Below, piece after piece: positions 17,123 to 19,322 of a DNA stretch of 64,000 nucleotides. A program made the position numbers and the translations under genes. This DNA is from Persephonella sp. IF05-L8. GTDB lineage: Bacteria; Aquificota; Aquificia; Aquificales; Hydrogenothermaceae. The notes below the pieces were generated by a model, which was not told where the DNA came from, did no database searches, and was given only the letters and a program-made list of their open reading frames with translations. The stretch's first letter is position 1; every line of letters starts with the position of its first letter. The stretch is from the NCBI RefSeq assembly GCF_000703045.1, contig NZ_JNLJ01000001.1, positions 897,501-961,500 of the forward strand, read 5' to 3'.

Positions 17123-18289
17123 TCACAAAGTAGAGTATCTCCTCATAAATTGTATGTAAAATACCAGACCAATCAACGGAAATATCCCTATTATTCCAGC
17201 AGCTATTTTGTAAGAAAAAACTGTTTCACCAAGTATATAGGTTATAACTCCCCATGTTAAAGGGGACAAAACACTTGCCATTCTCTCAGAAATTGACATA
17301 AAAGCAAATCTTGTTGTAAGTTCCTCCTCAGGAGAAATCCTGATAAGAACAACCCTTAAAGTCGTCCATAAAGCAGAAATCATAACTCCAAACCATGCAG
17401 CAGTTATATAAATAAACCAGCTATTAGAAAAATAAAGCATTGCAATTCCCAATATCCAGCCTGAAAAAACAAAAATTAAAAATTTCTCAGGTTTAATCTT
17501 TTTCATAACATATCCGGAAACAGGAGCAGAAATTACAGCAAAAACAGCAGCAAAAGCAATTGTATAAATAACCTTATCCTGTGCAAAACCAAAAACCTTT
17601 TTTAAATAAATTGACATAAATACAATCAAACCGTGGGCTGCATCAGTTAAAAGTAAAATAGAAATCAGAAATAACAAAAACCCTTTTTCTGTAAAAATAC
17701 CTTTTAGATGAATTTTCTGAGGCTTATTCCTTTTTGTTCTCAAAAAAATAACAGAAGGCAGAGCAAACAACGCGAAAATAACAGCAGTAATTAAGAAACT
17801 CTGCTGGGGATTTTCAGATAAAAAATTTGTTATAAGCAGACCTACAATAGCCCCAATATAACCAATACCTACTCCAATTCCAGAAACAACACTGATTAAA
17901 GAGTTATTAGACACATCAAATAATAGGGAATTATAAAACACCAGACTTTGCTGGTATATCATATTCAAAAAGAAAAAAAGTATTAAAGCACTCCACAGGG
18001 AATTAGTAAAATAAAAAGCTGGGAGTAGAAAGATTATCAAGATTACAAAAATTTTAAACAGCTTATCTTTTATACTCTTTTCATCTGCTATTTTTCCCAG
18101 AAAAATTCCGACAATTATTGAAGCAAATATGGAAATTGCATAGGTAAATGAGTAATGATATGAACTTCCCCCAAGGGAAGAAACTATCCATAAAGGAAAG
18201 AAAACTGAAATAATATTAGCTGAAAAAATTGTTTCTGCAAAATCAAAAAGAGCCCAGGACAAAACTCTAATCTTCCTCAAGATTAACAA
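17123..18289 (-). CDS. MFS transporter (UMF1/Atg22-like)
   Basis: A 388-residue inner-membrane protein with about 12 hydrophobic segments. It begins RVLSWALFDFAETIFSANI, the family signature 'WxLYDxANxxF' of UMF1/Atg22-like transporters, and has the loop GKIADEKSIKDKL after the third segment in the place of the MFS motif A. Substrate is unknown. The start is TTG 18289 or TTG 18280, both within the 3' end of the pseudouridine synthase gene, with which it overlaps by up to 23 bases and is surely co-transcribed. It meets the cupredoxin gene tail to tail. Confidence 0.8.
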   Translation of the reverse strand: MLILRKIRVLSWALFDFAETIFSANIISVFFPLWIVSSLGGSSYHYSFTYAISIFASIIVGIFLGKIADEKSIKDKLFKIFVILIIFLLPAFYFTNSLWSALILFFFLNMIYQQSLVFYNSLLFDVSNNSLISVVSGIGVGIGYIGAIVGLLITNFLSENPQQSFLITAVIFALFALPSVIFLRTKRNKPQKIHLKGIFTEKGFLLFLISILLLTDAAHGLIVFMSIYLKKVFGFAQDKVIYTIAFAAVFAVISAPVSGYVMKKIKPEKFLIFVFSGWILGIAMLYFSNSWFIYITAAWFGVMISALWTTLRVVLIRISPEEELTTRFAFMSISERMASVLSPLTWGVITYILGETVFSYKIAAGIIGIFPLIGLVFYIQFMRRYSTL

Positions 18290-18998
18290 GCCTTTTTAGA
18301 TTTTTTATTTCTTCAGAGGTGAGTTCCCTAAATTCTCCTTCTTTTAATTGGGGGTCAAGCTTTAGATTTCCTATTCTAACTCTTTTCAAATACAAAACAG
18401 GATGACCGAGGGCTTCCATTATCCTTTTTACTATATGGTATTTACCTTCTTTTACTGTAATGAGTATCTCGGATTTTTCAGGGCTTGTAGAAATAACTTT
18501 TACCTTAAATGGTTTTGTCTGATAGTCCTTGAGTTTTATCCCTGATTTTTTATATTTTGAAAAATCAATGTCTGATACATCACCTTTGACAATGGCATAG
18601 TATTCCTTTTCAATTTCCCATTTGGGATGGGCAAGCCTGTGCCCAAGCTGGCCATCATCAGTTATTATAAGCAAACCTTCTGTGTCTATATCAAGCCTAC
18701 CTATAGGAAATAATCTTTTATAAACAGGAATTTCCTGAAAGAATTCCATTACTGTAGGATAGTCTTTGTCTTCAGTGGCAGTAATATATCCGGAAGGTTT
18801 ATTAAACATAAAGTAATAATGCTTTTGATAGATTACAGGTTCTTCATCTACGTAAACGATATCTTTTTCAGGATTAATATGGAAAGATGGGTTATTGATG
18901 ATATTATTGTTAACTCTGACCCGTTTTTGCTTGATTAATTTTTTGACCTCTTTACGACTGCTAAAGCCTAAGTTTGAAAGAAATTTGTCTAATCTAAT
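18267..18998 (-). CDS. RsuA/RluB-family rRNA pseudouridine synthase, ATT start
   Basis: Isomerises a specific uridine of rRNA to pseudouridine. The catalytic domain contains FPIGRLDIDTEGLLIITDDG with the nucleophilic Asp in RLDIDTEG, and ends KRIMEALGHPVLYLKRVRIG. The first in-frame ATG, at 18809, would remove the S4 RNA-binding domain, yet the frame upstream clearly encodes that domain: IRLDKFLSNLGFSSRKEVKK, then VRVNN. Between the in-frame stop at 19013-19011 and 18809 there is no ATG, GTG or TTG. The only sensible start is ATT 18998, with AAAAGG eight bases upstream, giving 243 residues, the family's normal length. It follows the HU terminator and overlaps the transporter gene. Confidence 0.85.
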   Translation of the reverse strand: MRLDKFLSNLGFSSRKEVKKLIKQKRVRVNNNIINNPSFHINPEKDIVYVDEEPVIYQKHYYFMFNKPSGYITATEDKDYPTVMEFFQEIPVYKRLFPIGRLDIDTEGLLIITDDGQLGHRLAHPKWEIEKEYYAIVKGDVSDIDFSKYKKSGIKLKDYQTKPFKVKVISTSPEKSEILITVKEGKYHIVKRIMEALGHPVLYLKRVRIGNLKLDPQLKEGEFRELTSEEIKNLKRLVNLEED

Positions 18999-19010
18999 CT
19001 TCCTTACCTT

Positions 19011-19036
19011 TTAAAACAGGGGGAATTGCTCCCCCT
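19011..19036 (-). terminator. Terminator after HU gene
   Basis: On the minus strand, stem AGGGGGA / TCCCCCT with a five-base loop, then GTTTTAA. It lies 13 bases past the HU stop codon; its tail contains the stop codon in frame with the downstream pseudouridine synthase. Confidence 0.85.
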
Positions 19037-19049
19037 ATTTATTAAAGTC

Positions 19050-19322
19050 TTACTTTACTCTTTCTTTGAGAGATTTAGCTGGGTGGAAAGTAACAACTTT
19101 TCTTGCAGGAATTTTGATAACTTCACCAGTTCTTGGGTTTCTTCCTTTTCTTGCTTTTCTTTCTTTTACGTTGAATACACCAAGCCCTGGAAGAGCAACT
19201 CTCTCACCCTTTTCAAGAGCTTCTGTAAGAGCTGCAACGAATGCGTTAACACATCTTTCAGCAGCAGCTTTTGTTGTTCCTGCCTGAGCTGCTACCTTTG
19301 CTACTAATTCAGCTTTTGTCAT
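19050..19322 (-). CDS. hup: HU family nucleoid DNA-binding protein
   Basis: A 90-residue histone-like protein that dimerises, bends and compacts DNA. The sequence [15 protein letters not shown], the beta-arm motif [15 protein letters not shown] and [12 protein letters not shown] are typical of HU. Monocistronic: a strong promoter, a leader hairpin, an AAGGAGG ribosome-binding site and a terminator are all visible around it, fitting an abundant protein. A single Cys in the first helical region is unusual but outside the DNA-binding arm. Confidence 0.95.

Follow-up and report, generated by a model that had tools for sequence, protein, structure and literature searches.

The gene considered here lies on the minus strand of the window, by which we mean the whole 64,000-nucleotide stretch of DNA that was analysed (Table 1). 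Its reading frame runs uninterrupted from 19010, just after a TAA at 19013-19011, as far as the stop codon at 18269-18267, and this one frame encodes both an S4 domain (PF01479) and a pseudouridine synthase domain (PF00849). The S4 and PseudoU_synth_2 domains span the full length of RsuA; indeed, the same two domains run from end to end in the E. coli enzyme (1KSK), the 16S rRNA pseudouridine-516 synthase, with which the protein also shares the GRLD motif. The closest solved structures are two RsuA proteins, and the top curated equivalog match is likewise RsuA (NF008097; 198.6 bits); because this score does not reach the equivalog cut-off of 275 bits, the protein is referred to as RsuA-like. 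Judged by its S4 and catalytic domains, the gene product is predicted to be a full-length RsuA-like 16S rRNA pseudouridine synthase. The start codon differs from that in E. coli: rsuA starts with ATG there, whereas the gene in the window appears to start with ATT.

Upstream lies an open reading frame for an HU-like DNA-binding protein, separated from the Shine–Dalgarno (SD) site of the RsuA-like gene by a terminator-like hairpin, a predicted extension of whose stem overlaps the SD site. Since the only promoter-like site found on the minus strand is upstream of the HU-like gene, the RsuA-like gene may be transcribed by read-through from that site. Downstream, the frame of an MFS-like transporter follows; between 18330 and 18230 on the minus strand, a GAGGAAGATTAGA stretch preceding a TTG, which may or may not be its start, has GGAAGATTAGA in common with the start region of the RsuA-like gene.

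Table 1. Features of the RsuA-like locus (window coordinates) and positions of further genes discussed in the text (genome and contig coordinates)
Feature	Position	Strand	Remarks
RsuA-like pseudouridine synthase gene	18267..18998	minus	243 aa counted from ATT; coordinates include stop
S4 domain PF01479	18864..18995	minus	E 7e-15; converted from protein residues 6-49
Pseudouridine synthase domain PF00849	18411..18818	minus	E 2e-21; converted from protein residues 65-200
ATT start codon (predicted)	18996..18998	minus	Nearby NTG absent; matches E. coli RsuA Met1; conserved
SD region AAAAGGTAAGGA	19001..19012	minus	AAAAGG 19012-19007 and TAAGGA 19006-19001; duplex energy -5.5 with anti-SD
First canonical in-frame start, ATG	18807..18809	minus	63 codons in, within catalytic domain; unlikely start
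Terminator-like hairpin	19020..19035	minus	Between HU-like gene and SD; ends about 20 nt before ATT
HU-like DNA-binding protein gene, upstream	19050..19322	minus	90 aa ORF; named from sequence, no family search
MFS-like transporter ORF, downstream	17123..18289	minus	Overlaps 3' end of RsuA-like gene if listed TTG start is right; named from sequence, no family search
phoH/ybeZ-like gene	G000:C1 ~448709	minus	L264; relatives L265-L293
tgt, tRNA-guanine transglycosylase	G000:C1 ~795136	minus	L234; relatives L235-L263
rsfS, ribosome silencing factor	G000:C5:31084	plus	L204; relatives L205-L233
alr, alanine racemase	G000:C1 ~857980	minus	L294
Nucleotide-sugar dehydrogenase	G000:C1:736133	plus	Candidate CTG start
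ORF without known family	G000, about C5:222284-222293	plus	Candidate ATT start
Glutamate-cysteine-ligase-like ORF	G000:C1:194296	plus	Candidate ATT start
ylxR/RnpM-like gene	G000:C1 ~602909	minus	Candidate slippage or frameshift
ylxR/RnpM-like gene	G014:C2 ~208561	plus	L334; candidate slippage or frameshift

The ATT codon ahead of the S4 domain

The codons leading into the S4 domain read AAG GTA AGG AAG ATT AGA TTA GAC. Between 19060 and 18960 on the minus strand, a stretch that includes some 60 bases ahead of the ATT, there is no ATG, GTG or TTG in any frame, and the sole CTG, at 19019, is directly followed by TTT TAA. Canonical initiation therefore does not explain the S4 domain, either directly or by way of a frameshift after such a start nearby, and the frameshift was ruled out as a candidate. 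The initial annotation had stated that no ATG, GTG or TTG occurs in frame before 18809, and that the S4 domain is encoded without interruption from an ATT preceded by AAAAGG. Both statements were borne out: the first in-frame NTG is the ATG at 18809, and PF01479 falls in the same open frame as the ATT, with the AAAAGG ahead of it.

The AAAAGG is spaced 8 nt from the ATT, which places the SD at a suitable distance, and the 16S tail has the standard sequence, ACCTCCTTT (also given as ACCUCCUUU). The strength of this SD is modest, its -5.5 kcal/mol being equalled or surpassed by 68% of long ORFs. In a phmmer alignment, the residue encoded by the ATT is matched exactly to Met1 of E. coli RsuA (1KSK). 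Since position, SD site, homology and conservation agree, initiation at the ATT is well supported, and we put at roughly 0.85 the probability that translation of the RsuA-like gene begins at 18998-18996.

The conservation is seen in the near genomes G062, G001 and G006, whose proteins are 94-98% identical to that of the window. The initial annotation had proposed checking whether close relatives keep the ATT, and they do: it is present in 4/4 genomes, counting the window's own. Within the S4 part, codon differences are mostly synonymous, with ratios of synonymous to other changes of 13:6 for G001, 11:4 for G006 and 4:3 for G062, the closest of the three; unlike the S4 part, the upstream bases lack this pattern of divergence. 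These observations bear on the possibility that translation starts at the ATG at 18809, leaving a catalytic domain devoid of S4 and the upstream frame as a relic. That ATG is the first canonical start in the frame, and E. coli RluE matches the catalytic part only; nevertheless, we consider such a start highly improbable, as the S4 part shows conservation of its protein sequence, the codon changes being mostly synonymous, and occurs in every one of the 33 family homologues, and the ATG falls within the PF00849 match.

That the base call is wrong and the codon is really ATG has nothing but the rarity of ATT starts in its favour, and its likelihood is negligible: the three near genomes were assembled separately and all read ATT, and ATT, ATA or ATC stands at the same codon in other genera. 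An error of sequencing or assembly was accordingly ruled out. An unusual initiator tRNA was also considered and ruled out, as ARAGORN, run on 96% of the genome, returned ordinary anticodons only, including two CAT tRNAs.

Start layouts and Shine–Dalgarno strength across the Hydrogenothermaceae

At the DNA level, 33 members of the family were compared, and three start layouts were distinguished. In layout (a), found in 14/33, the homologous codon is ATT (10), ATA (3) or ATC (1), and no NTG occurs in the six codons upstream; its members are the window's genome, G062, G001 and G006, together with representatives of genera g2, g3, g7, g8 and g10. The start is less certain in one of these, G014, where the codon is ATA and an in-frame CTG also lies two codons upstream. 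In layout (b), also 14/33, an ATG or TTG is situated three codons upstream, giving proteins of the MKKIRLDKF type, and in layout (c), 5/33, ATG or TTG occupies the codon itself. When the upstream start is present, the homologous codon drifts among ATC, GTA, CTC, TTA, GTT and ATA, and is ATT in 0/14; among the 19 lacking an NTG three codons upstream, it is ATT in 10, ATA in 3, ATC in 1 and NTG in 5. The association of ATT with the presence or absence of the upstream NTG has a Fisher p value of 0.0014, a figure that is uncorrected for kinship. Outside the Hydrogenothermaceae, ATG stands at this codon in the eight relatives compared (L193-L200).

In the window gene, the place of the sister species' ATG or TTG (M-K-K-I-R-L-D type) is occupied by the GTA at 19007-19005. 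A start at this GTA must be weighed: the position is homologous to the ATG/TTG of 14 relatives, and the GTA is kept in all four near genomes. Against this, the GTA departs from AUG at two positions and has no SD upstream (+1.0 kcal/mol), the AAAAGG itself overlapping it, and in g2, g7, g8 and g10 a start at ATT, ATA or ATC is the only reading that has a well-placed SD. We consider initiation at the GTA improbable, and retain the ATT as the preferred start.

The SD sites of the near-cognate RsuA-like genes in other genera are strong, at -8 to -9, and across the family SD strength follows the class of start codon: an energy of -4 kcal/mol or lower is found for 14/14 near-cognate and 0/19 canonical versions, with medians of -8.4 and +0.8, respectively. 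In rsuA alone, this association amounts to few independent events, because the near-cognate class needs only three changes on the tree, two of them forced by well-supported branches; a phylogeny-aware pair test on rsuA has only two to three independent pairs. The same direction is seen for rsfS, with SD medians of -12.7 (near-cognate) and -6.7 (canonical), and for tgt, with -10.5 and -6.4; these medians are insensitive to three sequences entered under the aligned codon, namely, L226 (rsfS; the actual ATG is three codons upstream) and L252 and L253 (tgt; the actual ATT/ATA is one codon later). What the sequence itself shows for the RsuA-like gene is where the start lies, that this position is conserved, and that SD and start codon are associated.

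Weak starts in other genes of the family

Coding sequence that starts before any NTG was sought in C1+C5, which make up 96% of the genome. The resulting list comprises infC, phoH, rsfS, tgt, alr and a nucleotide-sugar dehydrogenase, together with a small number of weaker cases; strong SDs accompany most of them. The start codons of infC, phoH, tgt and rsfS were then compared in about 30 family genomes each. The first two are nearly uniform: infC has ATT in 28/30 Hydrogenothermaceae genomes and ATC in the other two, and phoH/ybeZ-like has ATT in 28/30 and ATA in 2/30, with a GGAGG SD before the start in all of the genomes compared. For tgt, the codon is CTG in 22/29, and in several genomes this CTG is immediately preceded by a TAA; two further genomes have ATT/ATA at the next codon. 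In both phoH and tgt, the identity of the start codon exceeds what codon usage would give, since ATT accounts for only 21% of invariant Ile columns in phoH, and CTG for only 10% of invariant Leu columns in tgt. The start of rsfS is near-cognate in 19/30 (ATA 15, ATC 3, ATT 1) and ATG in 10. In many genomes a stop codon lies two codons upstream of the rsfS start; in g7, g8 and g10 an ATG is accompanied by a weaker SD. By contrast with these conserved cases, the CTG of alr is confined to the four closest genomes and is not counted as conserved. Candidate non-canonical starts were also noted for the nucleotide-sugar dehydrogenase and for two further ORFs (Table 1).

When 348 orthologue pairs were compared, using 0.4 Mb of G014, no near-cognate start conserved in both genomes emerged beyond those already listed; given this, and the shortness of the scan list, such starts are rare rather than general. 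The initial annotation had described ATT starts as rare, with infC as the classic case; the rarity stands, but the case at hand is not an isolated one, as infC, phoH, tgt and rsfS of the Hydrogenothermaceae use ATT, CTG or ATA.

Separately, the N-terminal RTCIICKK of a ylxR/RnpM-like gene and its remainder, KKRPKYQLIRFV, lie in different frames, and in the G000 and G014 genomes alike the two meet at a run of nine A; this is a candidate for conserved transcript slippage or frameshifting.

From family names and what is known of the families, we take infC, the RsuA-like gene, phoH, rsfS and tgt all to act on ribosomes or tRNA, PhoH being the least certain. The coherence of these five conserved weak-start genes is suggestive rather than a formal enrichment, candidates having been picked once the list was known.

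Proposed low-yield initiation and a possible role for IF3

In the mechanism we propose, the 30S subunit would find the AUU at 18998-18996 through pairing of the SD with AAAAGGTAAGG, and fMet would initiate there. The fMet-tRNA would pair imperfectly with AUU, for which SD pairing would compensate, giving a low but sufficient yield; in its simplest form, this would be constant down-tuning through poor pairing in the P-site. IF3 is the factor that rejects AUU-type start codons. It could be expected to reject such complexes here and so set the level, such that output should go up if IF3 becomes scarce in relation to 30S subunits. Both the low yield and the dependence on IF3 are inferred. Selection appears to hold initiation low, since a weak codon with an SD replaces the SD-less ATG/TTG of sister species. 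The family conserves this arrangement in infC, phoH, rsfS and tgt as well, and the pattern across these genes suggests that selection keeps the starts weak so that expression is limited or regulated.

The classic precedent, infC, likewise combines an AUU start, an SD and a conserved codon. It differs in that its product, IF3, itself rejects AUU, and hence the feedback is direct; we know of no effect of an rRNA pseudouridine synthase on start-codon choice. IF3-responsive control of the RsuA-like gene, as in infC, is a reasonable, albeit unproven, idea by analogy. Feedback control, raised in the initial annotation, is only plausible: the presence of infC among these genes and the maintenance of the weak starts hint at it, and plain down-tuning fits equally well; no feedback element was identified, and the sequence gives no support for autoregulation by the enzyme.

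The absence of an identified feedback element, together with the variation of start type within rsuA among relatives, also favours the view that the ATT is the true start but is unregulated, being a weak start tolerated under weak selection in a gene needed only at a low level. Its chances fall just short of even. Against it, ATG is just one base change away, but ATT/ATA persists in phoH in 30/30 genomes and CTG in tgt in 22/29; the weak codons are accompanied by strong SDs; and rsfS and ybeZ of E. coli have weak TTG starts as well. In E. coli K-12, infC (ATT), rsfS (TTG; L345:4720-5037) and the PhoH-like ybeZ (TTG; L345:28339-29379) are the sole non-ATG/GTG starts in 147 CDS, from sampled regions chosen to include these genes, and rsuA and tgt have ATG.

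To our knowledge, E. coli pcnB is a single gene in one species, whereas in the Hydrogenothermaceae several ribosome- and tRNA-related genes are involved family-wide. The AUU start of pcnB, a gene other than infC, has been proposed to keep its expression low (Binns and Masters 2002, as referred to in PMC13009471). In S. aureus, infC (AUA), cvfC1 (AUU) and ccpN (AUA) have conserved near-cognate starts with extended SDs, and ribosome profiling and reporters show that these AUU/AUA starts lower initiation, with IF3 being discussed (PMC13009471). The pairing of conserved near-cognate starts with long SDs is common to both sets; the S. aureus set differs in its genes and phylum and has ribosome profiling behind it, whereas that of the Hydrogenothermaceae is known from sequence alone and includes CUG starts. 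A literature search, in which few subscription journals were covered, turned up no work on the start codons of this lineage. Near-cognate initiation of the AUU type is already known as a kind (infC, pcnB, cvfC1 and ccpN); within the literature covered, what appears new is the gene, the lineage and the set of ribosome-related genes.

A bolder proposal, which we regard as speculative and rather unlikely, is that infC, the RsuA-like gene, phoH/ybeZ-like, rsfS and tgt form an IF3-responsive regulon, with selectively maintained weak AUU/AUA/CUG starts and strong SDs, that would raise ribosome maturation, silencing and modification factors as the ratio of IF3 to 30S declines. On this proposal, E. 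coli would have the same control in another phylum, through its own weak starts in infC, rsfS and ybeZ.

With gene finders restricted to ATG, GTG and TTG, these conserved proteins would come out truncated or misplaced. Selected weak starts in ribosome- and tRNA-related genes beyond infC would point to the choice of start codon as a layer of control, and it becomes possible to test directly whether IF3 governs genes besides its own.
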